Assembly: GCA_020629955.1 (NCBI GenBank)
Contig: JAHDCI010000010.1
Coordinates: 6,954 to 60,101 of the forward strand
Source of the DNA: Myxococcota bacterium
GTDB taxonomy: Bacteria > Myxococcota_A > Polyangia > Polyangiales > Houyiibacteriaceae
Direction: 5' to 3'
DNA: 53,148 nt
Shown: piece by piece, positions 13,602 through 28,581 of the stretch
Layout of the letters: each line of letters starts with the position of its first letter
How positions within the stretch are numbered: the first letter of the stretch is position 1
Program-made: the position numbers and the translations under genes
The notes under the pieces: model-generated
Databases searched by the model: none
What the model was told of the DNA's origin: nothing
Seen by the model: the letters and a program-made list of their open reading frames with translations, nothing else

Positions 13602-14000
13602 CTAGTCGCGATTCGAGTGGTAGCGCAGCGCCGCGCGGATGCACTCTCGAACGATCGCACGGTTGAAATGAGTGTCACGCTCCCAATAAATCGCGCGGCT
13701 TTTTTCGTATCTCAGGGCGTCACCATAGGTCTGCCGATAGCCTTCAATAAGGGTGGTGCTACAAGGCACGAAGAGCGCATATCCGGTTCGAAATGGCGCT
13801 AGACGAATCGTAGTTCCGGTCTTTGGGCGCTCGGTTAAATACGCTGGCTGTCCCCATCGGAGCGCTTCAATAGGTGTTCCGATGCCGGGCTCGGCGGCCG
13901 TTTCGAAAATGAGTTCGCGAATCGCCAAAAGTTCACGCTTGATGCTCGAATCGAATGCATCAAACGCTCGCTCGACTTCTTTGTTTTGAAATGGCTTCAT
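13602..14000 (-). CDS. DUF1801 (YdhG-like) domain protein
   Basis: 132 residues, cytoplasmic, no signal peptide. It fits the DUF1801 fold throughout: ALRWGQPAY in the centre, TTIRLAPF, YALFVPC and a C-terminal Arg-rich helix with IREC-type residues. Members are sometimes called iron-chaperone-like, but a biochemical role is not established. The start overlaps the stop of the M19 dipeptidase gene by ATGA, so the two are co-translated, with no obvious functional link to the exported neighbours. Confidence 0.75.
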   Translation of the reverse strand: MKPFQNKEVERAFDAFDSSIKRELLAIRELIFETAAEPGIGTPIEALRWGQPAYLTERPKTGTTIRLAPFRTGYALFVPCSTTLIEGYRQTYGDALRYEKSRAIYWERDTHFNRAIVRECIRAALRYHSNRD

Positions 14001-15361
14001 GGTCCGTCCGCATCCGAGTCTGCTTGGGGGCTGATGCGCTCCGCATCCGAGTCTGCCTCGGCGTCGATGCGCTGCGCGTCGAGCACTCGGAGCACGTTCT
14101 CTCCGAAGATCGCTCGAACGTTGAGTTCCCTCGATTCGAGTTCCTCACGCAGAACTCCGAGATCCGATACGTCTTCCATTCCGATCGGGAGTTCCGGGAC
14201 GCCGTCAAAATCGGAGCCGAGGCACGCCGCTCCCGGTCCGCCGACCTCAATGATGTGGGCGATATGATCGGCGAGGGTCGCCACGCTCGGCGGATTGAGA
14301 TCTGGATCGAGCTCGAGCGCGAGCCGGAACTTCGCCGCGCCCCGATCGACCCAGTTCTCATATTGGTCCTCGAGCGGCCGAAAGAGCGCGCGTCGCTGAA
14401 ACTCGATTCTCCGCCGTCTACCGCGATACGAGGCGTCGATGTACTGCGTATAGAAGTTCGCGCAGATTGCACCACCGTTTGCGCCAACCCGGCGAATCAT
14501 CGCGTCCGTCATATTGCGTGGATGGTTGCTGAGCGCGCGAGCCGACGAGTGGCTCGCGAGCACCGGGCGTTCCGCGATTTCCATGATATCCCAGAAGGTT
14601 TGATCGCTGACGTGGCTGATATCGACGATCATGCCGAGATCGTTCATTTCTCGGATAATGCGGCGTCCGAGCCGGGTAAGGCCTTCCTCGGGTGCATCTC
14701 CCGAGGACGAATGGCCGAAGGGATTGTCGATCGACCACGTGATGGTCATGTACCGGTTTCCGAGCTCGTAAAGGCGCCTTAGCCTCTGAATCGCAAGACG
14801 AGGATCGTCTGTTCCCAGCGCATGACCACCTTCAACTCCCATGAGGACCGCGATTTTCCCATCTCTTGCCGCGGCGCGAATTTCTTCTCCCGTAGTGCAG
14901 AGAGCCAGGGTTTCAGGATGGGCCTCGACAGCTCCGCGAATGTGCTCCGTTAGTGCGAGCGCGCGGGGCCACCAAGTTTCCGGATCTCGAAAGCGGGTCG
15001 GGCTGACATATACCGAGAAAAAAGCTCCCGTCAGGCCACCCTCACGCATCCGCGGAACGTCCACGTGTCCTCCCTCGAGCGGCCCGGTGATGTCGTCCCC
15101 ATCATCCAGCATTCGTTGCGGCGTATCGATATGGGTATCGATGGCGATGAATGGAAGCGGCTCCTCCTCCGCCGGTTGAGGCTCGGCCGCTCGAGCGGCT
15201 TCCGTTCGATGCGGCGTCTCTTCGGCCGCTGGCGTCTCTTCCGATGGCGTTTCGGGAGGTGCTTGAGACACTTCTGCGCTCGCGTTTGAATCGTCGCCGC
15301 AGCGGAAGAGCAGCATGCAAAGAACGAGAGAGACGAGCGTTTTGCAAGTTTTGGAGAACAT
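13997..15361 (-). CDS. Exported M19-family (renal-type) dipeptidase
   Basis: 454 residues. A hydrophobic N-terminus reaches LFRC at residues 18-21. Cys21 followed by GDDS looks like a lipoprotein end, although Arg at -1 is atypical for a lipobox. A Glu/Pro/Ala linker (25-70) leads to the M19 core, a TIM barrel that hydrolyses dipeptides. Zinc-site motifs are present: DTHIDTP (His77, Asp79), GVEGGHALG (bridging Glu), DISHVSD, LASHSSA and LGSDFDGV near the end. The C-terminus carries a duplicated DA-x-RI-acidic segment encoded by a 33-bp direct repeat. It is first gene of a three-gene unit. A cell-wall-peptide or nutrient-peptide role is plausible. Confidence 0.88.
   Translation of the reverse strand: MFSKTCKTLVSLVLCMLLFRCGDDSNASAEVSQAPPETPSEETPAAEETPHRTEAARAAEPQPAEEEPLPFIAIDTHIDTPQRMLDDGDDITGPLEGGHVDVPRMREGGLTGAFFSVYVSPTRFRDPETWWPRALALTEHIRGAVEAHPETLALCTTGEEIRAAARDGKIAVLMGVEGGHALGTDDPRLAIQRLRRLYELGNRYMTITWSIDNPFGHSSSGDAPEEGLTRLGRRIIREMNDLGMIVDISHVSDQTFWDIMEIAERPVLASHSSARALSNHPRNMTDAMIRRVGANGGAICANFYTQYIDASYRGRRRRIEFQRRALFRPLEDQYENWVDRGAAKFRLALELDPDLNPPSVATLADHIAHIIEVGGPGAACLGSDFDGVPELPIGMEDVSDLGVLREELESRELNVRAIFGENVLRVLDAQRIDAEADSDAERISPQADSDADGP
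14008..14073. repeat. 33-bp direct repeat, two copies, inside the dipeptidase C-terminus
   Basis: Units at 14008-14040 and 14041-14073 both begin ccgcatccgagtctgc and end gatgcgct. They encode two copies of an acidic tail segment in frame (33 bp = 11 codons), so copy-number change would not break the gene. Confidence 0.8.
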
Positions 15362-15746
15362 AGTTCGGTGAGCAGTCTGTTGTTCGTTTCCGGCGATATG
15401 TCGCGAACATTTTGGGCGCGCAGAGGCGTCCGATTTAGAGTCGGGTGTCTTCCTTGCTCGGCGTCAAGCGTCCGAGCGGGTGAAAATTTCGCAAAGCGAG
15501 ATTCGAACAGGTCGACGGACCGAGAGAGAACTCTACGTCGGTTTTCTGTCCACCGGTCCACATTTTGGAAAATCGCAACTCGATTCGTTTTTGGATTGCC
15601 TCCACGATTTTTTAGACCCACGATCGCGGCTCTCAAACGTCTCCCAGCACCGCCTCTCGCAGCTCCCGTCAGGTTGAGCGCGATCGAACCAAGAAGGCCT
15701 GTTTTTCTTTTCTGAGTTTGGCGCTTGCGTCAGAAACGGAGTGAGC
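15362..15746. other. Divergent intergenic region
   Basis: About 385 bp between the divergent dipeptidase and ATP-grasp-like genes. Apparent frames within it have poor starts and no recognisable product. It holds a candidate operator at 15381-15409 and the ribosome site GGAG (15738-15741) of the plus-strand gene. Confidence 0.6.
15381..15409. promoter_or_regulatory. Possible operator: nested inverted repeat
   Basis: TGTTCG (15381-15386) and CGAACA (15404-15409) are perfect inverted repeats 17 bases apart. Inside lies a second palindrome, GCGA-TATG-TCGC (15393-15404). The site is 20-48 bp upstream of the dipeptidase start, a usual place for repressor binding. No regulator gene lies beside it. 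Confidence 0.3.
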
Positions 15747-17219
15747 GTGTCGAACGCACGTTGTGAACGGATTGTCCCCGGCAGTTTTGAGCCGGAACAT
15801 CACTATTACCCACGAGTCCTTAACGCTCATAGGCATCCCTTGGTGCGTTTCTTTCTTTCGTTGAGCAATGACCAACTCGCAGAGAGATACATTCATCTCC
15901 ATCCCGAGGCGGATCGGGATCGCGTGCATTCGCTCTTGGCCCACCGACCAACGCACTTTCGTTGGGCCGGTGCGGACGTCTTCCATGTCGCGACCGATCG
16001 CGGCGTGCGCCGGAACGTGGTGATTGAGACCAACTCCTCTCCGTCTGGTCAGAAGTCGATGCCCTACGACGATGAAGAAATGGGAATGGGAGGCTATCGC
16101 GAGCTGATGGAACGGACCTTTCTTCCGATGACTCGGCGCCGCGGCCTTCCGGCCGGAGAACTTGCGGTGATCTGCGACAAGAACCCGATGGAGACCCGCG
16201 CTTACGCCGCAGTGCTCGCAGAGCTTTCCGGCGAACCGGTTTGGTGGGTTCACTGGCCGCAAGGCGAGGAAAACATTGCGTTCGTCGACTCGCGGGGAGT
16301 CCTGAACCTTCGAACGGACAATGGACAAGTTCCGATTCGCGCAGCGTTCAAATACCTAACGCAGCGTCCTTGGAATCGCCTGCCTCCACTGACTCGCACG
16401 GTCGTTCTTAACCCTGTGCTGGTCTGTTTGGCAGGGGGCCGAAACAAGCTGATGGCATCAAAGGCGTACGACTTGATGAACGCGGACTTAGATGGAACCG
16501 GCATTCGGTTGCGGACGCCAGAGACCATCTGGGATGTCGCGAAACAAGAGGTCCCTCTTTGGGTAGAGCGAATGGGCGGAGTCGCGGTTGTGAAGGTCCC
16601 TTACGCGAACGCGGGACAGGGCGTCTACACGATTACCAGCAAGTCGGAGCTTGATGCCTTTATGGCGATGGAGCATCGCTACGACCTATTCATCGTCCAG
16701 AGCCTGATCGGGAACGCTGCGTGGAGCTCGCGTACGCGCGAGGGCACTCTCTATCATGTCGGCACGATCCCGAATAAGAAGGGCGAGATATTCGCGGCCG
16801 ATCTTCGGTTCATGGTCGGCGCGGACCCCAGCGGGTTCTATCCGCTCGCCATCTACGCGAGACGTGCGCGAAAACCACTGGCGCCCACACTCGAAAGCGG
16901 CGTCTCCTCCTGGGATATGCTCGGCACGAACCTCTCCAAGCAAAACGAAGATGGAAGCTGGACGACCGAGCCCGAGCGGCTCCTGCTCATGGACAGTCGA
17001 GATTTTAACCGGCTCGGGATCGGGCTCGACGACCTGACCGAGGCCTACATCCAGACGGTGCTATCCGTCACTGCGATCGACGAAATGGCGAAGCGGCTGA
17101 CAACGAAAAAGGGGCTCTTTCGACGAAAGTTCTTTGGAACTCTGAACAGCGACGCGGGCTTGCTCCGCGAAATTTGCCGCATCCCAGGAGAGAAGGGAGG
17201 AACGCATGCGACGAGCTAG
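15747..17219 (+). CDS. Circularly permuted ATP-grasp-like protein (putative amide-bond ligase)
   Basis: 490 residues from the GTG at 15747, which lies five bases after GGAG; another GTG six bases earlier is in frame. No signal peptide or membrane segment. The order of motifs recalls circularly permuted ATP-grasp proteins (DUF404/407 and glutathionylspermidine-synthase-like): an early VVIETNSSPSGQ, then NPVLVCLAGGRNK, then VVKVPYANAGQGVY as the ATP-binding strand and loop, and later AADLRFMVG and NLSKQN as candidate Mg2+ ligands. It probably forms an amide bond between an amino acid or amine and an unknown acceptor. It is first of a three-gene overlapping set and overlaps the M14 gene by 14 bp. 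Assignment is by eye, and I do not know a characterised close relative. Confidence 0.6.
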   Translation: MSNARCERIVPGSFEPEHHYYPRVLNAHRHPLVRFFLSLSNDQLAERYIHLHPEADRDRVHSLLAHRPTHFRWAGADVFHVATDRGVRRNVVIETNSSPSGQKSMPYDDEEMGMGGYRELMERTFLPMTRRRGLPAGELAVICDKNPMETRAYAAVLAELSGEPVWWVHWPQGEENIAFVDSRGVLNLRTDNGQVPIRAAFKYLTQRPWNRLPPLTRTVVLNPVLVCLAGGRNKLMASKAYDLMNADLDGTGIRLRTPETIWDVAKQEVPLWVERMGGVAVVKVPYANAGQGVYTITSKSELDAFMAMEHRYDLFIVQSLIGNAAWSSRTREGTLYHVGTIPNKKGEIFAADLRFMVGADPSGFYPLAIYARRARKPLAPTLESGVSSWDMLGTNLSKQNEDGSWTTEPERLLLMDSRDFNRLGIGLDDLTEAYIQTVLSVTAIDEMAKRLTTKKGLFRRKFFGTLNSDAGLLREICRIPGEKGGTHATS

Positions 17220-18255
17220 TTCGGCCTATCAGGATGGTCGGATCCCTATCGTTAAAGAAATCTGTCTTGAAGATTTTCCTGTGGGGCGGTCACGCGCGCT
17301 CTTGGAGGTCTCGCGAGACGGTCTCGGCCGGACTGTCTGTCTGCCGCTATTGATTCTTCGTGGGTCAAAACCGGGGCCGACGTTCGGACTCACCGCAGCG
17401 CTACACGGAAACGAGCTCAACGGCATTCCGGTGATTCGACGGCTCTTGGCATCTCTGGATGGCGTACCCCTTCGGGGCACGATCCTCGCGGCGCCGGTCT
17501 TGAATATCCCAGGATTTCTCGCGAACCAACGACGTTACCGAGACGGCGTCGACCTCAACCACATCATGCCCGGTGATCCCCGCGGAAATGAGTCGGAAGT
17601 GTACGCACACTCGATCGTCGAGCGGCTTATCCATCACTTCGATCTCATGATGGATCTCCACACTGCCTCGTTTGGACGAATCAACTCCCTCTACGTTCGG
17701 GCCGATATGAGTGACCCGGATACCGCAACGATGGCGCGTCTTCAGCGCCCGCAAATCATCCTGCACAATCCGCCTGCGGACCATACGCTCCGCGGCGCGG
17801 CGGCGGAGCTGGGGATCCCCGCCGTCACCGTGGAGATTGGGGACCCGCAGGTGTTTCAGCAAAAGCATATTCGGCCAACGCTCGCCGGGATTCGCGCCGT
17901 TCTCAGCGAAAGAAAGATGATCGCCGGAAAGAAACGCGTCGAGCGTCCACCCGCCGTTCTATGCTCACGGTCCGAGTGGCTCTTTACCTCCAGCGGCGGG
18001 CTTCTCGAGGTTCAACCTGAGCTTGCGTCGATCGTTGAAACGGGAGACCAGGTCGCGCGTCAGGTCGACATCTTTGGGGATGTCATCGCGACGTACACAG
18101 CGCCGCAGCGCGGCGTCGTGATTGGGAAAGCGGTCAATCCTGTTGCCCCGACCGGGTCTCGGATCCTGCACGTGGGGCATATCGCGACGGATGAAGAACG
18201 CGCGGCGCTTCTAGGATCTCATCGTTATTCGGATGTCCCGGAGGCTCCTGAATGA
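17206..18255 (+). CDS. Succinylglutamate desuccinylase/aspartoacylase-type zinc hydrolase (M14 superfamily)
   Basis: 349 residues. Zinc-site residues of the AstE/ASPA group are visible: LHGNELNG (His67, Glu70), VDLNHIMPG, MMDLHTA (His152) and the catalytic Glu210 in VTVEIGD. The C-terminal 90 residues form the usual beta-rich cap (GGLLEVQPELASIVETGDQVARQVDIFGD). Enzymes of this group cleave an N-acyl or amide group from a small amino-acid substrate. Lying between two ATP-grasp genes, it is more likely to process their product than to act in arginine catabolism, since no other ast genes are present. It overlaps the upstream gene by 14 bp and the next by 4 bp. Confidence 0.87.
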   Translation: MRRASSAYQDGRIPIVKEICLEDFPVGRSRALLEVSRDGLGRTVCLPLLILRGSKPGPTFGLTAALHGNELNGIPVIRRLLASLDGVPLRGTILAAPVLNIPGFLANQRRYRDGVDLNHIMPGDPRGNESEVYAHSIVERLIHHFDLMMDLHTASFGRINSLYVRADMSDPDTATMARLQRPQIILHNPPADHTLRGAAAELGIPAVTVEIGDPQVFQQKHIRPTLAGIRAVLSERKMIAGKKRVERPPAVLCSRSEWLFTSSGGLLEVQPELASIVETGDQVARQVDIFGDVIATYTAPQRGVVIGKAVNPVAPTGSRILHVGHIATDEERAALLGSHRYSDVPEAPE

Positions 18256-19220
18256 GACTGCTATTTCTGGTGAACGAGCTCGGCTCGCTTAAGCCAAGCC
18301 AGTCGACGTTTCTCCTGCTTCAGGAGGCGCGGCGGCAAGGACACGAGGTGTTCGTGTGTGGCGTTCGGGATGTGAGCAGCAGGAGTGCGGGCGTTTCGGT
18401 TCGCGTTTGGCGGGCTGGGGAACATCCGCCTCCGTCTAGCGACTGCCCCGGAGAGGTCTTGCGCGTCGACGCGTTTGATAGAGTCTTGATCCGTACCAAC
18501 CCCGGTCGCTATCACGATGCCCCGCTCCACACCGCGATGCTCCACCAGCTCGCTCGCGCGGAGCGAGCGGGCGTCAAGATCTTCAACTCTCCGGCAGGCT
18601 TGCTCTCTGCTGGGTCGAAGCTCTTTCTCACCGAACTTCCGGAAGAGACCATTCCTACGACGATCGCGAGCGGCGACCGAGCGGAACTACGAAGTTTCGT
18701 GAACGCACAGGGACGCACCACCGTTTTGAAACCGGCGCTCGGAACGCGGGGGAACGGTGTCTTTTTTTTGGAACCGCAGGACCGAAACCTCGATGTCGTG
18801 CTGGATGCTCTCCTGGCGCAAGGGCTCGTCATTGGACAAGGATTCGTCCCGGACGCTCGGGCCGGAGATACTCGTGTCGTTTTACTGGATGGTGAGGTTC
18901 TCGAGCTGGGTGGAAGAGCGCTCGCCGTTCGCCGCGTACCCGCGAAAGGAAGCCTACGCAGCAATGTTCATGTGGGTGGCGTTCCCACGCCAGGAGTGGT
19001 GACCTCCGAGATGCGAGCCTGCGTACGGGCCATTGCCCCGATCCTCCAAGCGCGTGGGCTGCGTCTTGTTGGCCTCGACTTTTTCGGCGACCTCATTGGC
19101 GAGGTCAACGTATTTTCGACGGGTGGTTTCGGAGATGCGCAGGACTTCTTTGAACGAAATTTCGTGGAGCATACCGTCGCGCGACTCTGCGCGGGCACTT
19201 CCACGCCTTCGTCGAATTAG
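18252..19220 (+). CDS. GshB/RimK-like ATP-grasp ligase
   Basis: 322 residues. N-terminal Rossmann-like pre-ATP-grasp domain (LLFLVNELGSLKPSQST), then the ATP-grasp core: VLKPALGTRGNGVFFL (phosphate-binding loop), VIGQGFVPDARAGDTRVVLLDGEVLE, KGSLRSNVHVGG and the Mg2+ ligand strand EVNVFSTGGF, which closely matches the end of glutathione synthetase GshB. No gshA is nearby, so glutathione itself is not implied; related ligases add glutamate or other amino acids to peptides or proteins. ATGA overlap with the M14 gene. A 96-bp gap without a terminator-like hairpin separates it from the AAA+ gene, so read-through is possible. Confidence 0.8.
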   Translation: MRLLFLVNELGSLKPSQSTFLLLQEARRQGHEVFVCGVRDVSSRSAGVSVRVWRAGEHPPPSSDCPGEVLRVDAFDRVLIRTNPGRYHDAPLHTAMLHQLARAERAGVKIFNSPAGLLSAGSKLFLTELPEETIPTTIASGDRAELRSFVNAQGRTTVLKPALGTRGNGVFFLEPQDRNLDVVLDALLAQGLVIGQGFVPDARAGDTRVVLLDGEVLELGGRALAVRRVPAKGSLRSNVHVGGVPTPGVVTSEMRACVRAIAPILQARGLRLVGLDFFGDLIGEVNVFSTGGFGDAQDFFERNFVEHTVARLCAGTSTPSSN

Positions 19221-19316: not shown

Positions 19317-22300
19317 TTGTTACCCTCAGCCCCGGTGACTTCCTTTTCTCTCGAAACCTACGTTGCGCTAGAGGAGCTGAGGACTGGTCTAGTGGTGGGG
19401 TATCCGCTGGTTCAGCCCCAGCTCGCTGTTGCGGGCACGCGTGAGCGTGTGCTGCTGGACTTGCGCCTCTATCTTAGTGAAACCCTCTCGACCGAAACCG
19501 ATGCGCGGGTGATCGCTGCCTACCAGCTGCCGAGCGTCCCGCGCGCTGGGGTCGTGCGAGTCGAGCTCCCGCAGACGGAACTACCGAAGCGTTCCCGGCG
19601 TGCCCAGGCGCTGGAGCTGACCTACGCGCATGCGGCAGGGGATGACGCCCGATGGGTGTTTGTGCCGCGACTTCAGCAGACGTTTTTTGTCGCAAATGAC
19701 GAGCCACTCGAAGAAACAATTCGTCACGAGTGTGAACGTATCTTGCGAGCGAAGGAGCCGACACCCCGAGAGCGCACGCATCTATTGCCGCCGGTCGCGT
19801 TTGAACTGTTGCCTGTCTCACTGAAGCTCGACGAAACGGCGGTTCGAGGAGAATCGGCGAAGCAGCTTCGAAAGCAGCTGCGAGAAGCTGCGACGGCGCG
19901 CCAGTCCTTGATGGTTTTGAAGGCGATCGGTCATCCACTTCACGGAGACCCGGACGTGCTCGATGGTCCTGAGATTGTCGCCCGCGATGCCGAGTTTGAA
20001 ACCCTCGCTGCGCTCCTCGACGCTCCGGAGAAGCGCTCGGTTTTGTTGGTCGGTCCGAGTCGATCTGGCAAGACCTCCGTCCTTCATCGATGGCTTCGAG
20101 AGCGGGAAAAGGTGCGCCTTTACGAAACTTCCGGGGCGCGCCTCGTTGCGGGAATGAGCGGACTCGGGCAGTGGCAGGAGCGCGTAAAGCGAACGATCGA
20201 GGCTTCCGAAAAGCTCGATGCGACACTGTATTTTTCGGATATCCGCGACCTCTTCGACCAAGGCAAAGGCAAGGGGAGCGTCGATATTCCAAGCGTCCTC
20301 AAACCCGCCCTGGAAGACCGCCGAATCCGAATCGTCGCGGAAGTTGACTCCTTGGCACTCGACGCATTGCGAAAGCGCAACGAAGGGTTCTTTGCGTGTT
20401 TTCACACCGTGCCCGTACCTCCCCTCGGCAGAGAAGAAGGGCGCCTCGCGCTCGAGGCGCGTCGTGAATTCTTGCGTGAGCGTCCAAGCGTGCCCGAGCC
20501 CGAAGATGAGGCGCTCTCGGCGATGCTTAGCCTCTCCGAGCGCTACCTGCCTTACCAGCCGCATCCCGCGAAAGCGACCGATCTTTTCGACGCCATCGCG
20601 GCGACGGCGGAGCGTCCCGGAGTCGTTGTCGGCAACTCGGAAACCATCGATGCGAGCGATGTTTATCGTCACTTCGGCGAACATAGCGGTATTCCGCAGT
20701 TTCTGCTCCGCGAGGAATTGACCCTCGATCCTGAACACCTGAAGGCTCGCGTTCGCGCGAAGATCGTCGGTCAGGACGAAGCGGTGAACGCGATTGTTGA
20801 CACGCTCTGCGTCGTCAAAGCGGGACTGCAAGCGGAGGAAAAGCCGCTCTCAACGCTTCTCTTCGTCGGGCCGACCGGCGTCGGGAAGACAGAGCTCGCG
20901 AGAGTTCTGGCAGAGCTGCTTTTCGGATCGCGGGACCGTTTGATTCGGCTCGATATGAGCGAGTATTCAAGTCCCGGGGCGGCGACACGTCTCATCGGAA
21001 GTCGACAAAAGGACGGCGCGCTCACGCAGCCGGTTCGGGAGCAACCGTTCTCGATTGTGCTCCTCGATGAGATTGAGAAGGCGCACCCGGAAGTATTCGA
21101 CTTGCTGCTCCAAGTGCTCGGGGAGGCGCGTCTTACCGATGCCCGTGGCCGCACCGCAAACTTTCAGAACTGCGTTGTGATTATGACGAGTAACCTCGGG
21201 GCAACGCATCAAGAGCACGGGCCGGGTTTCGGCGCACCTTCGAAGATCGCAGATACATCTCGTTACCTCCATGCGGTTCAGCAGGCGTTTCGTCCGGAGC
21301 TCGTGGGGCGCCTCGACCGAATCGTTCCTTTCGACAATCTCCGCGCCGACCAAGTCCAAGCGATTACCGAGCTTGCGGTTCGCAGCATCGCGAAGCGGCG
21401 CGGTTTGTGGGACTTCGGAACCGCCCTGGAGTGTTCCGAGGATGCGATGCGTGAACTCTCCCGGCGAGGGTATGATCGTGCGTACGGCGCGCGCGCACTC
21501 CGCCGAACAATGGAGGAGTTGGTCGCGACTCCGATTGCCGAGATGCTCAGTGATGCCGAGCACCGACCCCGCAACGGCACTGTGCACATCCGAACTGAAA
21601 ACGAGACGAAGGCTCCCGGGGCGACGCTCACGCTCGAGCGGCATGGTCTTCGTTTCGAGTTCGTTCGCAACAAAGCAAGCCTCCACGGTGCAGATTCACC
21701 ACTTCTGCCGGAGCTCGAACGAGCGCGGGAACTCCGCGGGTTTATGAATCGTGTGTTTGCGGCGCCGACGTTCGAAGGTCTTTTTCCAAAGTACAAAGCG
21801 CTTCTCGCGGAGCTTCACGCCTCATGGTCGTCGCGAAAGAAAGCGCAAGGACAACGCGCCGAACTTCAACTCGAGCTCGAATATCTCGCGAAGTACGTCC
21901 GCCAGTTGCAGGAGACCAAAGCGAACGCCTTGGCCGTCGAAGAGGTTCTCTTCGTGGCGCACCTCCAGGGGCAGAGCTTTGAGAACGCGAAGGCCGAAGT
22001 CGACGCCGCAGAGCAAGCCTTCCACGATGCTGCGCTCGCGTACCTGCTCGACGTCGACAAGATTCACGCGGCGTCCATCCTCTGCACGGAATACGACAAA
22101 GGTCGCTCACTACGTCATTGGCTGCCCGCCCTCTTTGGCGATCTAGAGCGCCGAGGATGGAGCGCGGTGCTTCACATCTTTGGCGACGAAACGGTGCAGA
22201 CCGGTTGGCCGCCTTCCGGCGTTTCGACGAAGTGGGGGCCTCCGCTCTCTCCCGAAGAGGCGGAGAAGCGCGTCATGGACCCCGGCCGTGACCCGATGCA

Positions 22301-22715
22301 CGCAATGCTTCGTGTGAAGGGCCGCCACGCAGGTACGTTGCTCGCTCAGGAGTGTGGCCTCCATCGATACCTCGGTGTGGATAAGCGCATGCCCGTGATG
22401 CATCACCGCTTGGTGTTCGCAGCGCCGCGTTTTGAGCTCACCGACAAGGACTGGGGCATCGAGGCGATTCGGCCGCCGGCTCGCCCGACGCAGGAGACCG
22501 CACTCAAGATGGCCTATCAGCGCATGACCGACGAACGACCCAATGCGAATCGGCCCGCGACGTATATCGACTGTCCGCTTTCCGAGTACTTCGCAGACTA
22601 CCATTTTCACGCGCTCGCACTCGCCACGCTATTGCAATGGGATGAAACCGAGGACGTGCGCAGACAGTCGACGCGAGGAATCCTCCCGGTCGCGACCAAG
22701 GAGAACTCCGCATGA
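19317..22715 (+). CDS. ClpB-like double AAA+ protein with release-factor-like C-terminus (subunit A)
   Basis: 1132 residues from TTG 19317 (AGG upstream); GTG 19335 is the alternative and the start is uncertain. Residues 1-200 are a domain shared with the next two genes, not a Clp N-domain. AAA-1 (about 215-440) has Walker A GPSRSGKT (246) but FSDI instead of hhDE at Walker B, and the pore-loop aromatic is lost (MSGLGQW). AAA-2 (about 490-790) is intact: GPTGVGKT (518), LLDEIEKAH, sensor-1 MTSNLG, Arg finger in FRPELVGR and sensor-2 GAR. Its pore loop 2 is shortened to GSRQKDG. Residues 792-1132 begin with helices, then resemble the PCRF domain of class I release factors: GWSAVLHIFGDE and LLAQECGLHRY, matching the canonical E-x-G-x-H-R. 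No GGQ loop. ATGA overlap with the next gene. Substrate unknown. Confidence 0.82.
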   Translation: MLPSAPVTSFSLETYVALEELRTGLVVGYPLVQPQLAVAGTRERVLLDLRLYLSETLSTETDARVIAAYQLPSVPRAGVVRVELPQTELPKRSRRAQALELTYAHAAGDDARWVFVPRLQQTFFVANDEPLEETIRHECERILRAKEPTPRERTHLLPPVAFELLPVSLKLDETAVRGESAKQLRKQLREAATARQSLMVLKAIGHPLHGDPDVLDGPEIVARDAEFETLAALLDAPEKRSVLLVGPSRSGKTSVLHRWLREREKVRLYETSGARLVAGMSGLGQWQERVKRTIEASEKLDATLYFSDIRDLFDQGKGKGSVDIPSVLKPALEDRRIRIVAEVDSLALDALRKRNEGFFACFHTVPVPPLGREEGRLALEARREFLRERPSVPEPEDEALSAMLSLSERYLPYQPHPAKATDLFDAIAATAERPGVVVGNSETIDASDVYRHFGEHSGIPQFLLREELTLDPEHLKARVRAKIVGQDEAVNAIVDTLCVVKAGLQAEEKPLSTLLFVGPTGVGKTELARVLAELLFGSRDRLIRLDMSEYSSPGAATRLIGSRQKDGALTQPVREQPFSIVLLDEIEKAHPEVFDLLLQVLGEARLTDARGRTANFQNCVVIMTSNLGATHQEHGPGFGAPSKIADTSRYLHAVQQAFRPELVGRLDRIVPFDNLRADQVQAITELAVRSIAKRRGLWDFGTALECSEDAMRELSRRGYDRAYGARALRRTMEELVATPIAEMLSDAEHRPRNGTVHIRTENETKAPGATLTLERHGLRFEFVRNKASLHGADSPLLPELERARELRGFMNRVFAAPTFEGLFPKYKALLAELHASWSSRKKAQGQRAELQLELEYLAKYVRQLQETKANALAVEEVLFVAHLQGQSFENAKAEVDAAEQAFHDAALAYLLDVDKIHAASILCTEYDKGRSLRHWLPALFGDLERRGWSAVLHIFGDETVQTGWPPSGVSTKWGPPLSPEEAEKRVMDPGRDPMHAMLRVKGRHAGTLLAQECGLHRYLGVDKRMPVMHHRLVFAAPRFELTDKDWGIEAIRPPARPTQETALKMAYQRMTDERPNANRPATYIDCPLSEYFADYHFHALALATLLQWDETEDVRRQSTRGILPVATKENSA

Positions 22716-25700
22716 GGGTTGCGGTCCCGATATTTCGACGGTCGACGAATGGCGATATCACCCTTCGTACGCTTGGGCTGCCCGAGGACCTCATTCTCCG
22801 CGGACGCTCTGATGCGAAGTGCGAACGCCAGCTTCGCCGACGAATCCCCAAACTCGCGGGAGATGCGCCGGTGCCCTTCGCGCGGCGGATCGCCGATCTG
22901 CGCGGGGCACGACTGCTCTCGATGCGGCTTGAACTTTCGCTTCGGAATGAGGCGGGTCGTCGTACGAAGATCACGGGGGCGTTTCCCATCGTGCTTGTGC
23001 CATACCCTCGAGGCGCAGAGGTTGAAGATACGTGGGAGGAAGAGCTGGCAGAGGGCGCGGTCGAAGTAATCGATGTCGTAGAGCATGGCGTTCGTCCCTC
23101 ATCGCTTCGGCCAGATGCCGTCCGGGGCGCTCGCGGCAGCGGGTCCGTTTACCCGTCAGCGCCTCCGCCCTCGATAGAGTCGGATCGCACCCGAGAAGAC
23201 CAGTGGGCGTTCCATCCGCTTCACCCAAATCACGTGGTCTACGTTCCCGAAGGAGAGAACCTTGAGAACATCGTGAGTAAGTCGTTGAGTCAGCTGCTCG
23301 TTGACCTTGACGAGCAAGACGTCGAAGCGCTCACGTGGAAAAAGCACGACCGCCTGAAAGTTCTTGGGCTCTCGCTCCGGATGAAATCGCTTGTCGACGA
23401 CCTACCGAAGCGAGATGACCCCTGGGCCGGGCTTCGTATCGAGGACGACCGTCGCGAGGGGGCGAAGCGAAACAAAAAGAAGAGCGGTAAGCCGCCCATC
23501 TTGCAGCAGCTCGGCGTGGATCTCTCGGAGCTGAGTTCGCAAGGAGAACTCGATGCTGGACTTCCTCGCCCGCGCCATCTTTCGCTTCTGGAGCACACTC
23601 TCTGCACGTCGCGTCCTCGCTCAACGGTCCTTATCGGCGCGCCCGGCGTGGGGAAAAGAACGCTGATCCGGCAGTTTGTAAAATCGCGCCTCGTGCACGA
23701 TGGTTTCGAAGGGCATCAGAACCTCGATGAAGTTAGCCGCGTGATCGAGCTGCAAGCGAGCCGAGTGCTCGCCGGTATGTCCTATATGGGCCAGTGGGAA
23801 GAGCGCTGCGTCAAGATCATGAATAGCGCGTTTCGTACGCGGTCGATTCTCTATTTTTCCGACCTCTATACCCTCGGCCGGATGGGGCGCTCTCAGCAGA
23901 GCGAGCGCTGCATGGCCGACGTTTTTCAGAGCGCCATGAGCCGCGGCGAGCTGTGTCTCGTGGGAACCTGCACCGCCTCGCAGTGGAACTCGCTCCTCGA
24001 GGACGCGCCAGGTTTTGCATCGCTCTTTCACGAGGTGCGTGTTCCGGAGGCGGAGCTTCCGGAGACACTTGCGATGCTTCTTCATCGAGGACGAGAGCTC
24101 GCAAACGGTAAGCCGCCGCAGGTGGACCTCGCGGCCTACCACGCGATTCTTTCGCAAGCGGTCCCGATCCTCACCGGGTCTCTTCCCGGCAAGGCGGTCG
24201 ATTTTCTGGACCGCTGTCATCGCAGCGCCGGCGGTCAAGTCTACGTCGATACCGTCGAGAACGTTCTCATCGAAAGCACGGGGCTTCCCTTTGAGATTAT
24301 TGATCCCGAGGAAAGCTTCCGCGTGCAAGAGATCCGGGAAAACTTGGGCGAGCAGGTCTTCGGGCAGAATGACGCGGTCTCTCAAGTGGCAGATGCGATT
24401 TTGCGCGTTCAGACCGGACTCTCTGAGGAAGGACGGCCGCTCGCGACGATGCTCTTCACCGGCCCGACCGGGACCGGCAAGACGCAGCTCGCGAAAGCCC
24501 TCGCTCGAGAGATGTATGGAGGTTCGACCGATCGGGATCCACGCCTCGTTCGTCTCGATATGGGAGAGTTTTCCGGTCCCGATGCTGTCAGTCGATTGAT
24601 TGGCTATCCCGGGAATGAACGGGGGCTGCTGACCGAGCCCGTTCGCCAACAACCTTTCTGCGTATTGTTGCTCGATGAGATCGAGAAGGCGCATTCAAGC
24701 GTGCTCTACCTGCTGCTCCAGATGTTGGATGATGGTCGATTGACGGATGCTTCAGGGGAGACCGTCGGCTTTTCACGTTCCATGATCGTGATGACGTCCA
24801 ATCTTGGCGCTCGATCTCGAGCGGCGATCGGGTTCGAAGACGAAGCGAGACATCATGAAGCGCAGCGACTCGATACGCTGAAGGCGATCAAAGAGTTCTT
24901 TCCGCCGGAACTATTTAATCGCATCGGCCGCATCATCTCGTTCGATTCACTCTCTCGCGAAACGGCTCGACGGATCGCGTCGCGAGAGCTTGGGCTCTTG
25001 CTCGCTCGGCGGGGCCTGACCGAACGGAACGTATTCGTTTTTGCTCATGAATCGGCTGTCGATCGGATGACGGATGCCGCGTTTGATTCTCGGGCTGGTG
25101 CCCGAAGCGTGAAGCGCTACCTCGAGACAACCATCGGCTCGCGCCTGAGTGAACATCTCGCCTCAACGGTACGCCCTGAGCTGGAAATTATTCGACTGCA
25201 CGCAGATGCCGATGGCTATCGACTGACCAACTCGGAGCTTCGGGAGACTCCCCCGCTCGAAGGACCGTTCCCATTCTTTCAACTCCGAGACGAGTCCACC
25301 GAATCGATCGAATCGCATCTTCGAATGCTCTTTTCGGACTTGCGCTCGCTGCTCGATGAGTCGGTTCTCTCGGAGCTTGACCAAGGGATTTCGGAAGCCC
25401 TTTCGTCTGGGGAAACATTTCGGGTCGCCGAACTCGATTCTCTTCGAGAGAGAGCGGTCTCCTACGCGGAGCAGCTCGAGCGTTTGGTTCACGCGGACCA
25501 ACACGCGCTCGAGGATGACCTCGAACATGAGCATGAGGGCTATATGCAAATTCAGCATAGCCGCGTAAAGCTACGAGATCGGCGTCAGACGAAGGCGGGG
25601 CAAGTGGAGCAATCGAAGGAGGCGTTGATTACGGAGCTCTCCAACGGACAGATGCTGCTTCGCGCTTTGCGCGATTTGGACCCTCGGGACGAAGTCTTTG

Positions 25701-26311
25701 TTTCGCTTTTGCGCGTCGGTGGTGCCGGGCAAGGGGCTGGGCTCGTGGAGGCCCTTGCGGCGAGATATGCGGAGCTTCCGGGAGTGGAGCTCGTGTCTTG
25801 CGCGGGTCGAATCGCGGATCGGGATCCCTTTCATACAACGATCGACGCGCTGACTGCGCTCTCCGGGGTAACGCAGGTGGAGCTGCGTTTACGCGGTTTT
25901 GGTATCGGATGGTGGCTTGATGGAGAGCGGGGCTGCCACGTCTTGGATTCGGCATCGGCGGACGGTGAAGTGGTTCGCGTCGGTGTCTCGCCGGTACTCC
26001 TCACGGTCGGAGAGAAGGAGCCAACGCCTCTCGATCGCATTCGAGACCATCTTCGTTCGGTAGAAGAATACGAGCGGCTTGTCGACGCAGGAGAGCAGCC
26101 CGAATTCTCAGACCCGGCGGGCCTTGAAAATGCGATTCGCCGCTACCACGTGGATGGCGAACTTCGGAATGATCAGCGAACTCGGGCGATTCGAATCGAG
26201 GACTATGCGCTCAGTCATGTCATCGAGACGCATTCCAAAGATGTCACAGAGCCGGTCTTCGACTTGATTCGAGCTAGGCTCTCTCGCCGGGTGGAAGAGG
26301 AAGGGCGATGA
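22712..26311 (+). CDS. ClpB-like double AAA+ protein with release-factor-like C-terminus (subunit B)
   Basis: 1199 residues, ATG with AGGAG eight bases upstream. The N-terminal region (1-260) is related to those of the flanking genes but has a longer linker. AAA-1 has a disturbed Walker A (GAPGVGKRT, about 309), FSDL at Walker B and keeps the pore-loop Tyr (MSYMGQW). AAA-2 is intact: GPTGTGKT (584), LLLDEIEKAH, MTSNLG, FPPELFNR, sensor-2 GAR. The canonical GYVG pore loop 2 is replaced by GYPGNERG. Residues 853-1199 start with a long Glu-rich coiled-coil-like stretch (nt 25300-25640), then DEVFVSLLRVGGAGQG and a GWWLDGERGCHV segment that align by eye with the PCRF domain. The last 30 residues (HVIETHSKDV then FDLIRARL) resemble the C-terminal helix of RF2. 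The catalytic GGQ segment is absent between them. Overlaps both neighbours by 4 bp. Confidence 0.8.
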   Translation: MRVAVPIFRRSTNGDITLRTLGLPEDLILRGRSDAKCERQLRRRIPKLAGDAPVPFARRIADLRGARLLSMRLELSLRNEAGRRTKITGAFPIVLVPYPRGAEVEDTWEEELAEGAVEVIDVVEHGVRPSSLRPDAVRGARGSGSVYPSAPPPSIESDRTREDQWAFHPLHPNHVVYVPEGENLENIVSKSLSQLLVDLDEQDVEALTWKKHDRLKVLGLSLRMKSLVDDLPKRDDPWAGLRIEDDRREGAKRNKKKSGKPPILQQLGVDLSELSSQGELDAGLPRPRHLSLLEHTLCTSRPRSTVLIGAPGVGKRTLIRQFVKSRLVHDGFEGHQNLDEVSRVIELQASRVLAGMSYMGQWEERCVKIMNSAFRTRSILYFSDLYTLGRMGRSQQSERCMADVFQSAMSRGELCLVGTCTASQWNSLLEDAPGFASLFHEVRVPEAELPETLAMLLHRGRELANGKPPQVDLAAYHAILSQAVPILTGSLPGKAVDFLDRCHRSAGGQVYVDTVENVLIESTGLPFEIIDPEESFRVQEIRENLGEQVFGQNDAVSQVADAILRVQTGLSEEGRPLATMLFTGPTGTGKTQLAKALAREMYGGSTDRDPRLVRLDMGEFSGPDAVSRLIGYPGNERGLLTEPVRQQPFCVLLLDEIEKAHSSVLYLLLQMLDDGRLTDASGETVGFSRSMIVMTSNLGARSRAAIGFEDEARHHEAQRLDTLKAIKEFFPPELFNRIGRIISFDSLSRETARRIASRELGLLLARRGLTERNVFVFAHESAVDRMTDAAFDSRAGARSVKRYLETTIGSRLSEHLASTVRPELEIIRLHADADGYRLTNSELRETPPLEGPFPFFQLRDESTESIESHLRMLFSDLRSLLDESVLSELDQGISEALSSGETFRVAELDSLRERAVSYAEQLERLVHADQHALEDDLEHEHEGYMQIQHSRVKLRDRRQTKAGQVEQSKEALITELSNGQMLLRALRDLDPRDEVFVSLLRVGGAGQGAGLVEALAARYAELPGVELVSCAGRIADRDPFHTTIDALTALSGVTQVELRLRGFGIGWWLDGERGCHVLDSASADGEVVRVGVSPVLLTVGEKEPTPLDRIRDHLRSVEEYERLVDAGEQPEFSDPAGLENAIRRYHVDGELRNDQRTRAIRIEDYALSHVIETHSKDVTEPVFDLIRARLSRRVEEEGR

Positions 26312-28581
26312 GCGAAAAGGCTTCCACTCGGGTCTACCTTGTTGAGTTCGACGACGGCGCTCTTGTCGGCTTCCTCATGCGGCGATGGTCCTCGTTTTTC
26401 GACGAAGCGCCGCCGAGTGCATTCGGCCCCGACCGAGAGAGTGTGCTCGCGCAGCTCGACGCAAAGCTTCAACAGCGCCTGGCGAATTCGGGGGAGACCC
26501 CGGAGATGTATCTTTGGAAAGAGACCTTTCATACGCGGACCGTGCGCGTGCTAAGCCGGCCTGCCACGACCATCGATCGACAGCCCGTCATCGGAAAGCG
26601 CGAACTTGCGCTGAAGCTCACGTACGCATGGTGCAAAACGGAGAGCGGCGCGTGTCGCGTGATGCTCCCTCGTTTTGGTTGGTGGATCATGCTCGAGGAT
26701 CTCGAGACCGCTCCAAAAGCGCTTGAAACCGCGCTCTCGTCCGCACTCCTCGGCGCGCAAAGTGAGGACCTGTACTCGTTTCGGGCGAGCGTCTCAGAGA
26801 CCGTTGTCGAGCACCGCTCAGAGGTGGTTTCCGCGACTCGTCGCTCCGATCGAGGGCCTCAGATTACTCGGAGCGTCGATGACCCAGGGCGTTTTCCAAC
26901 GCTTGTCAGCGTGGCGGATGATTGGATCGAACGCTCGGCGCGAAATCGATTGCCCAAGCCGGTGGGCGAGCGCCGCTCGCATCGAGCTGCGCATCTGGCA
27001 AAACAGCCGCGTTCCTTCCTTCTACTCGGCGAAAGTGGGGTCGGAAAGACCACCGAACTTCATTTTCTCGCACGCCAGCTCATGCGCGAGCGTCGCGCCA
27101 AGCAACGGGTACCTGGGCTTTGGAGCACGAGCGCGGACCGCTTGCTCGCAGGGATGGTCTATCTCGGGATGTGGCAAGAGCGGATATTGAATCTCGTTGC
27201 GGAGCTGGAGGATGAGGACCAGCTATTGAACGTTGGCCGTCTTGCCCCGATGGTCCGCCCGCAATCGGACGGCGCGTCGATCGCTTCTCTCCTGCAACCC
27301 GCGATGGCTCGAGGTTCGATCTCGATCGTTGCGGAGTGTACACCTCGTGAACTTTTGGCCGCGCGACGTGCGAATGCTTCCTTTGTGGATCTCTTCGAAA
27401 TCGTCGAGGTGCCGGAATCAAAAGGCGCAGACGTTTTAGAATGGGTCCGTGCTTATGCTGCTCGCGGAGAAGGGCGAAAAACGATTAGCGCACAGGCTGC
27501 GAAATCTGCCATGCGGCTCCTCGCGACCTATCGTCGCGACGCGCGGTTTCCCGGAAAGGCCTTCCGGTTCTTTGATGCGCTGCGACTCGATGCGAAGGTC
27601 CCCGAATCCCCGAGTGTCGCCGACATCGAAGAGAGCTTTTCTCGGCAGACTGGGATTCCGATCGAACTTATCTCAGACCGTCATACTTCCGGATTCTCGG
27701 AGGTACGGGCGAAGCTTGAGCGCGGAGTCATCGGTCAGCCGGTCGCGTGTGAGGCCGCGGCAAGAGCGATCGTTCCATTTAAGGCGGGCATGAATCCACC
27801 CGACCGTCCTCTTGGAACGATGCTCTTCGTGGGACCGACCGGTGTTGGAAAAACCGAATTGGCGAAGCAGATAACGCGCACTCTCTTTTCGGATTCGAAG
27901 CGTTTGATTCGAGTCGATATGAGCGAGTATTCGAGCCCCTATTCGCTTTCACGTTTGCTCGAGAGTGGCGACGGAGTCCGATCTCTGGCGGAGGCTGTTC
28001 GGCGGGAGCCATTGAGCGTCGTGCTTTTTGATGAAATCGAAAAGGCCCACCCGGATGTATTCGACCTGCTGCTCGCGATTCTCGGGGAAGGGCGCCTGAC
28101 GGATGTCGAAGGGCGGCTCGTGGACTTCCGGATGACTTTGATTCTGATGACGTCGAACCTCGGTGTTCGTGACGCATCGGCGCTCGGGTTTGATGCCTCG
28201 ATTGACGCCAACGACTTTCGGCGTGCGGTTCGAGACCACTTCCGTCCGGAGTTTCTTGGACGTGTCGACCAGCTTGTTCCCTTTGCGGCCCTGACCCCAG
28301 CGGCGCTGAGAGGCATCGTTGACCTTCAGCTCGCTCTCGTCGAACGGCGAGAGGGCATTCGTTCGAAGGGGCTTCGTCTACGAGTCTCGGATAGCGCGAA
28401 GGACGCGCTGGCTTCCCTCGGATATTCCCCTCGGTATGGCGCGCGACCTCTAAAGCGCGTTATCGAAAGTCATGTCGTCACGCCCATCGCGCATCGCATC
28501 GCATCGCATCCTTCGTGGAGAGACGTGGACGTGCGCATTGGGGTGCCGGGTGAGGCTGCGGAGATATTTGTTTCGGGATAG
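26308..28581 (+). CDS. ClpB-like double AAA+ protein without C-terminal extension (subunit C)
   Basis: 757 residues, ATGA overlap with subunit B. Residues 1-190 share the N-terminal domain of subunit A (LALKLTYAW and LPRFGWWIML against LELTYAH and VPRLQQTFFV). AAA-1 keeps a good Walker A (GESGVGKTT, 241) and pore-loop Tyr (VYLGMW), but the Walker B acidic pair is gone (LNVGRLAP). AAA-2 is complete: GPTGVGKT (509), LFDEIEKAHPDV, LMTSNLG, FRPEFLGR, sensor-2 GAR. Its pore loop 2 is ESGDGVRS, again without GYVG. The protein ends right after the AAA-2 small domain, so it is the only one of the three lacking the release-factor-like tail. It may complete a mixed ring with A and B. No classic terminator follows; a short GATGG/CCATC hairpin lies near 28600. 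Confidence 0.85.
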   Translation: MSEKASTRVYLVEFDDGALVGFLMRRWSSFFDEAPPSAFGPDRESVLAQLDAKLQQRLANSGETPEMYLWKETFHTRTVRVLSRPATTIDRQPVIGKRELALKLTYAWCKTESGACRVMLPRFGWWIMLEDLETAPKALETALSSALLGAQSEDLYSFRASVSETVVEHRSEVVSATRRSDRGPQITRSVDDPGRFPTLVSVADDWIERSARNRLPKPVGERRSHRAAHLAKQPRSFLLLGESGVGKTTELHFLARQLMRERRAKQRVPGLWSTSADRLLAGMVYLGMWQERILNLVAELEDEDQLLNVGRLAPMVRPQSDGASIASLLQPAMARGSISIVAECTPRELLAARRANASFVDLFEIVEVPESKGADVLEWVRAYAARGEGRKTISAQAAKSAMRLLATYRRDARFPGKAFRFFDALRLDAKVPESPSVADIEESFSRQTGIPIELISDRHTSGFSEVRAKLERGVIGQPVACEAAARAIVPFKAGMNPPDRPLGTMLFVGPTGVGKTELAKQITRTLFSDSKRLIRVDMSEYSSPYSLSRLLESGDGVRSLAEAVRREPLSVVLFDEIEKAHPDVFDLLLAILGEGRLTDVEGRLVDFRMTLILMTSNLGVRDASALGFDASIDANDFRRAVRDHFRPEFLGRVDQLVPFAALTPAALRGIVDLQLALVERREGIRSKGLRLRVSDSAKDALASLGYSPRYGARPLKRVIESHVVTPIAHRIASHPSWRDVDVRIGVPGEAAEIFVSG

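Follow-up and report, generated by a model that had tools for sequence, protein, structure and literature searches.

Three overlapping genes of a Myxococcota genome encode a candidate three-subunit Clp-type system with release-factor-like tails

Three consecutive genes, here called A, B and C, were analysed within a 53,148-nucleotide stretch of DNA from a Myxococcota bacterium (GenBank assembly GCA_020629955.1, contig JAHDCI010000010.1; the whole stretch is referred to as the window). Each gene encodes a protein with two AAA+ modules (D1 and D2) of the Clp/Hsp100 type. Strict co-occurrence, a fixed order wherever the genes are linked and the presence of one of each where they are not identify A, B and C, with high confidence, as one obligate three-part system; as a functional unit, the single three-subunit machine proposed in an initial annotation of the window is thus borne out. 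The co-occurrence also makes a physical hetero-oligomer of the three proteins probable. The C-terminal tail of A is remotely homologous to domains 1 and 2 of release factor 2. Docking of such tails to the translation machinery is a serious possibility that we advance with reserve, and the complete picture, a Clp-type motor of different, obligate subunits that dead release factors attach to the translation machinery, is put forward somewhat more tentatively.

Co-occurrence was assessed in 191 Myxococcota genomes that are at least 95% complete, besides the genome of the window itself, with profiles specific for each subunit (the tail of A, the tail of B and the N-domain of C). A was found in 43 genomes, B in 35 and C in 40, and 33 genomes have the complete set; five further genomes with a match to prfB alone were not counted as containing A. 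For A and C, 39 genomes harbor both genes, 4 only A, 1 only C and 147 neither (Fisher p 7e-35); the corresponding values are 3e-28 for A and B and 2e-30 for B and C. Where B was not called in distant genomes, the sensitivity of the profile is the probable reason. The genes of 27 of the 33 complete sets are found close together on one strand in the order A-B-C, and another adjacent order exists in no genome. The recurrence of an identical order in 27 genomes places the arrangement beyond chance. In a search that covered 58 relatives, the same order, mostly with overlapping genes, came up in a dozen genomes whose neighbouring genes otherwise differ.

A D1 motif specific for A, sought in 84,980 species genomes, was located at 58 loci. 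Within Myxococcota, these are found in Sorangium, Minicystis, Corallococcus, Myxococcus, Pyxidicoccus and many metagenome-assembled genomes (MAGs); further loci belong to Planctomycetota, Verrucomicrobiota, Acidobacteriota and Eremiobacterota, at least five phyla in all. In full trios, the first two genes have a long tail and the third has none. Since some loci held just one or two of the genes, 20 of the genomes were searched with a family profile, and the extra copies were retrieved and then placed by tree. Eight genomes whose genes are partly or wholly unlinked (G056, G058, G059, G060, G061, G062, G065 and G073) contain a single copy each of A, B and C. For example, on the complete chromosome of Sorangium cellulosum So ce26 (G073), the recorded positions are 11.60 Mb for C and 0.76 Mb for A-B. 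Homologues that regularly occur singly had been named in the initial annotation as a finding that would speak against a joint machine; the apparently single ones belong to dispersed sets in these eight genomes. G067 has three copies, its A being left off the tree, G066 and G068 have two copies and one copy, respectively, in fragmented assemblies, and G064 has a fourth copy. In a sample of Planctomycetota, the system is found in about 3% of the genomes, and five of the six positive ones encode both A and C on the same strand, at a distance of 4.4-5.5 kb. Genomes with the system are large (median 9.1 versus 5.8 Mb).

One locus departs from this layout. At L072:2330-5572, with a spacing that is repeated in G154, A and B seem to be shortened or merged, and their tail matches lie 1.4 kb apart. 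The B of this genome (4.8 Mb) is without most of D1, and C is still present.

In the phylogeny, the trio family forms a single clade separate from the sampled canonical Clps (SH-aLRT 100). The family comprises three lineages, a Polyangia type, a Myxococcus type and a Planctomycetota-Verrucomicrobiota-Acidobacteriota-Eremiobacterota type, and within each of them A, B and C are separate clades with support of 98-100. A tree that unites all A, all B and all C genes in one clade each, irrespective of lineage, is the best or an equally good one, with weak support at depth, and the three types therefore probably predate the spread of the system. That the genes are ordinary lineage-specific duplicates of ClpB or ClpA without joint function fits the fact that all three are recognisably Clp/Hsp100; it is contradicted by position-specific clades across phyla, by strict co-occurrence and by the one-of-each rule, and we consider it extremely improbable. 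Two lineages of the system seemingly exist in one genome in G085 and in MAG Prado144 (loci L075 and L101). A fourth long-tailed paralogue falls within the family tree but into none of the A, B and C clades; it occurs in two trio-bearing Planctomycetota genomes (L154 of G064 and L159 of G069). A double AAA+ protein of 907-937 aa (L160 of G070, L161 of G075) groups neither with the trio family nor with the sampled canonical Clps, and is possibly another unnamed Clp class.

All three proteins exceed the Pfam cut-offs for AAA_2 and ClpB_D2-small in D2, and the ClpA model, which has no M-domain, aligns over D1-D2 as a single stretch in each. They thus have the two AAA+ modules with a Clp-type D2 and D2-small that define class I Clp/Hsp100 proteins. 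Mutual identity of the AAA cores is just 31-37%, barely above the 28-35% shared with the canonical Clps of the same genome. D1 and D2 are conserved to different degrees (two misassigned sequences, L040_C and L055_B, were excluded from the family alignments after the first ones). In D1, Walker A is retained. The Walker-B glutamate is missing in all 87 sampled members versus present in 16 of 17 canonical Clps, and the arginine-finger motif RRF occurs in 2 of 154 family members versus 15 of 17 canonical Clps. A signature AGM-x-x-x-G-x-W-[QE]-x-R takes the place of the canonical AG-x-K-[YF]-R-G-x-F-E-E-R loop. D2 retains its ATPase motifs (Walker A, Walker B, sensor 1, arginine finger and sensor 2). 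The GYVG pore loop of D2 is found in none of the 87 sampled members, as opposed to 16 of 17 canonical Clps; most Polyangia-type B sequences have a pore aromatic (F, W or Y) within a shortened loop, which elsewhere is not clearly kept. Hydrolysis-competent modules in both D1 and D2, as expected of Clp/Hsp100 proteins, are hence not present: D1 has lost its Walker-B glutamate and, nearly throughout, its arginine finger, and D2 is intact. By its motifs, D1 is catalytically dead with a preserved nucleotide-binding loop. Because the ATPase motifs of D2 are intact, those of D1 dead and GYVG lost, D2 is likely the motor and D1 a nucleotide-binding scaffold, and classical threading through two rings appears unlikely.

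The same D2 module bears on a possible role in proteolysis. The motif [LIVMT]G[FLYW] is found in the loop after sensor 1 in 25 of 30 B, 25 of 28 C and 11 of 23 A sequences, and the ClpA of the same genomes has VGF at this spot. ClpP is encoded in all 191 genomes. These observations would fit a hetero-oligomeric unfoldase that feeds ClpP, with B and C docking through their [LIV]GF-like loops; as a ClpP docking site, the loops are suggestive only. However, compared to ClpA, the loop is shortened by a few residues, the threading loop is absent from all three D2s, no protease is linked to the trio and ClpP is not adjacent to it, and no dedicated copy of ClpP accompanies the trio (18 of the 44 positive genomes have a single ClpP). 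We regard such an unfoldase as quite unlikely. The argument of the initial annotation that the lack of an adjacent protease excludes the standard Clp roles nevertheless does not follow, since ClpP is encoded away from the trio and B and C have a [LIV]GF-like loop at the docking spot of ClpA and ClpC.

The comparison with described Clp classes separates the trio from each of them. ClpA (TIGR02639) is similar in its double AAA+ architecture without M-domain, its D2 motifs and a GF-type loop at the ClpP-docking position, but the trio scores about 290-314 bits versus a cut-off of 993, lacks Clp_N, the D1 Walker-B glutamate, the arginine finger and GYVG, carries long tails on A and B, and consists of three obligate paralogues. 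ClpB, ClpG, ClpK and ClpV (TIGR03346, NF033607, NF033606 and TIGR03345) share the class I Hsp100 architecture and good D2 matches. The trio falls far below each of the curated cut-offs (ClpB, 297-331 bits versus 1232; ClpV, 224-258 versus 885), and differs in having no M-domain, no type VI secretion system context and in being a set of three. Secretion genes of this type were not found among the scanned genes of the window, in agreement with the initial annotation. Matches to anti-phage defence systems (PADLOC; e.g. DolB, PDC-M37B) involve the AAA core alone and none is system-specific. ClpI of Actinomycetota, the nearest recent addition, is a newly described further double-ring class; its ATPase modules and translocation motifs are reported to be intact, and LGF loops occur in some members only (PMC10149685). 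The trio, by contrast, has a dead D1, a lost GYVG and release-factor-like tails. It looks like an uncharacterised, system-level variant within Clp/Hsp100.

The tails of about 380 aa are found on A and B of the window and are absent from C. A profile of 42 A tails, compared to the PDB, ranks RF2 and RF1 chains on top (best RF2 E = 1.6e-7), and all matches down to E = 0.0031 are release factors. The homology covers domain 1 as well as domain 2 (PCRF) of RF2, and 11 of the 42 A tails match Pfam PCRF on an individual basis (best 3.2e-6). In whole genomes, the only other matches of the profile are ORFs of 373-402 aa, which from their length and the matched region we infer to be prfB. The AlphaFold model of the A tail (pLDDT 91.5) has release factors as its first 41 fold matches, the best with probability 1.00. 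Homology to the A tail is also seen for the B tail (hhalign E 4.8e-7, probability 92.5), which has no direct match to release factors and is related to them via the A tail alone; the domain 1-2 homology of class I release factors is hence found directly in A and indirectly in B. The catalytic GGQ is missing from 41 of 42 A tails and from 34 of 36 B tails, and the three instances that do occur are at unrelated places; the stop-codon tripeptide (SPF or PxT) is found in none of the 42 A and 36 B tails. Since A has neither this tripeptide nor a GGQ where one would be expected, it cannot function as a release factor. The A tail further differs from RF1 and RF2 by an insertion of about 30 residues and by its fusion to a Clp motor. 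At the end of 7 of the 42 A tails (e.g. L063, L073), a domain of the L7/L12 C-terminal type is found.

The N-domains of A, B and C (about 210-280 aa) are homologous to each other (hhalign 3.7e-18 for C-A and 1.1e-8 for C-B). None has a Pfam match, to Clp_N or otherwise, and a fold search with the AlphaFold model of the C N-domain matched no solved fold. A weak profile match to HicB (E 0.008) was not supported by the fold search and was discarded.

It is known that heteromeric AAA+ rings of diverged paralogues with division of labour exist in the proteasome (Rpt1-6) and in the m-AAA protease (Yta10/12). These belong to other AAA+ clades; the trio has diverged paralogues in common with them. Established knowledge of Clp proteins makes a mixed ring of A, B and C likely. 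In the machine we propose, the three proteins would form a mixed hexameric double ring, in the simplest case 2A:2B:2C, in which D1 would serve as the scaffold and contact the substrate and D2 would be the motor. With GYVG lost from all three D2 pore loops, it would probably remodel or pull short segments, rather than thread its substrates like ClpA or ClpB. The tails, a release factor body without GGQ or stop-codon tripeptide, would act as docking arms for the factor site, the stalk or a release-factor partner, and the ATP would then be used on a target bound to the ribosome, e.g. a nascent chain or a complex that is stalled or terminating. The most specific version, a ribosome-docked heteromeric Hsp100 with dead release factors on two of three subunits that remodels stalled or terminating complexes as a form of rescue or quality control, is speculative and in our estimate rather unlikely; we know of no such Clp-based route in bacteria.

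Several observations weigh against this picture. The distribution is patchy (44 of 191 Myxococcota, about 3% of Planctomycetota), which is odd for a core translation factor, and single clades of A, B and C are weakly supported at depth. The release factor homology is remote, and single A tails score near or below the PCRF cut-off, several of them weakly. The TM-scores of the A-tail fold matches are modest (0.24-0.39). Clustering of 412 neighbouring ORFs revealed no conserved partner gene, translation genes included, and gave just small clusters, e.g. of protein kinases. Given this remote homology and the loss of the functional residues, the fold may now serve a purpose unrelated to ribosomes. 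The three proteins could then still form one complex, with the release factor fold recruited simply for assembly or protein binding; the missing motifs, the divergence of the B tail past direct recognition and the lack of adjoining translation genes are in line with this. On the other hand, domain 1 is kept besides domain 2, and the L7/L12-type domain adds a second translation-derived module to some A tails, although such domains are also found in non-ribosomal proteins. On balance, we see an assembly module unconnected to ribosomes as an unlikely, yet reasonable, account of the tails.

A further objection concerns the ring itself. Each subunit has a complete D2 including its own arginine finger, so that homohexamers are possible in principle, and the unlinked sets imply that co-translation is not essential. 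A, B and C could accordingly each form a homohexamer of its own, and be co-inherited because all three act in one pathway. Their nature as paralogues of one ring-forming fold, the shared N-domain, the like degeneration of D1 and the fixed translational overlap instead make one ring the simplest arrangement, as in proteasomal Rpt1-6, and we judge separate homohexamers improbable.

The coordinates of the three genes are summarized in Table 1. The three ATGA-joined genes of the initial annotation were recovered, as plus-strand reading frames, at the positions given there. Its domain layout holds in part: a degenerate first and an intact second AAA module are found family-wide, the tails of A and B, which offer the best hint at function, had been overlooked, and the N-domain is not Clp_N. 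A plausible ribosome-binding site (AGGAG/GAGG-like) precedes both ATGA junctions. The start codon of A is uncertain (TTG at 19317, alternatively GTG at 19335).

Table 1. Features of genes A, B and C (window coordinates)
Feature	Position	Strand	Description
Gene A	19317..22715	+	1132 aa: N-domain, D1, D2, release-factor-like tail
A N-domain	19317..19961	+	residues 1-215; homologous to C N-domain; not Clp_N
A D1-D2 AAA core	19962..21572	+	Walker-B Glu and Arg finger missing from D1; D2 intact, pore loop shortened
A tail	21573..22712	+	homologue of release factor 2 domain 1 and domain 2 (PCRF); no GGQ, no SPF/PxT
Gene B	22712..26311	+	1199 aa: N-domain, D1, D2, tail
B N-domain	22712..23560	+	residues 1-283; hhalign 1.1e-8 versus C N-domain
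B D1-D2 AAA core	23561..25177	+	D1 and D2 modules
B tail	25178..26308	+	homologous to A tail, divergent release-factor-like; hhalign E 4.8e-7, probability 92.5
Gene C	26308..28581	+	757 aa: N-domain, D1, D2, no tail
C N-domain	26308..26946	+	AlphaFold pLDDT 88.9; no known fold match
C D1-D2 AAA core	26947..28521	+	D1 and D2 modules
ATGA overlap A/B	22712..22715	+	ATG 22712 / TGA 22713-22715
ATGA overlap B/C	26308..26311	+	ATG 26308 / TGA 26309-26311

Just upstream of A, an overlapping cluster of three genes (15741-19220) encodes a 492-aa protein without Pfam match, an AstE/AspA-type deacylase (17206-18255) and a glutathione-synthetase/RimK-like ATP-grasp protein (18252-19220). The cluster looks like a peptide- or amino-acid-ligating operon, and is not common to other trios. 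A gene for an M19 dipeptidase, divergent from A, is found near the trio in the window (13997-15361) and in two relatives (L042:11978-13255 and L047:9458-10900), probably as family-level synteny.

Neither a fusion of Clp with a release factor nor a Clp trio of this kind was found described in the open literature, and a paper on the evolution of release factors makes no mention of Clp (PMC6514570).

Bacterial Clp rings are taught as homohexamers, and to our knowledge no bacterial Clp ring of three obligatory different subunits has been known. An obligate three-subunit Clp system in at least five phyla would make subunit specialisation in a Clp motor open to direct tests, and culturable hosts for such tests exist among Sorangium cellulosum, Minicystis rosea and strains of Myxococcus, Corallococcus and Pyxidicoccus. 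If the proposed docking is true, the release-factor-like tails would tie an unfoldase-type motor to the bacterial ribosome, an idea comparable to Cdc48, which acts in eukaryotic ribosome quality control, with a different ancestry.
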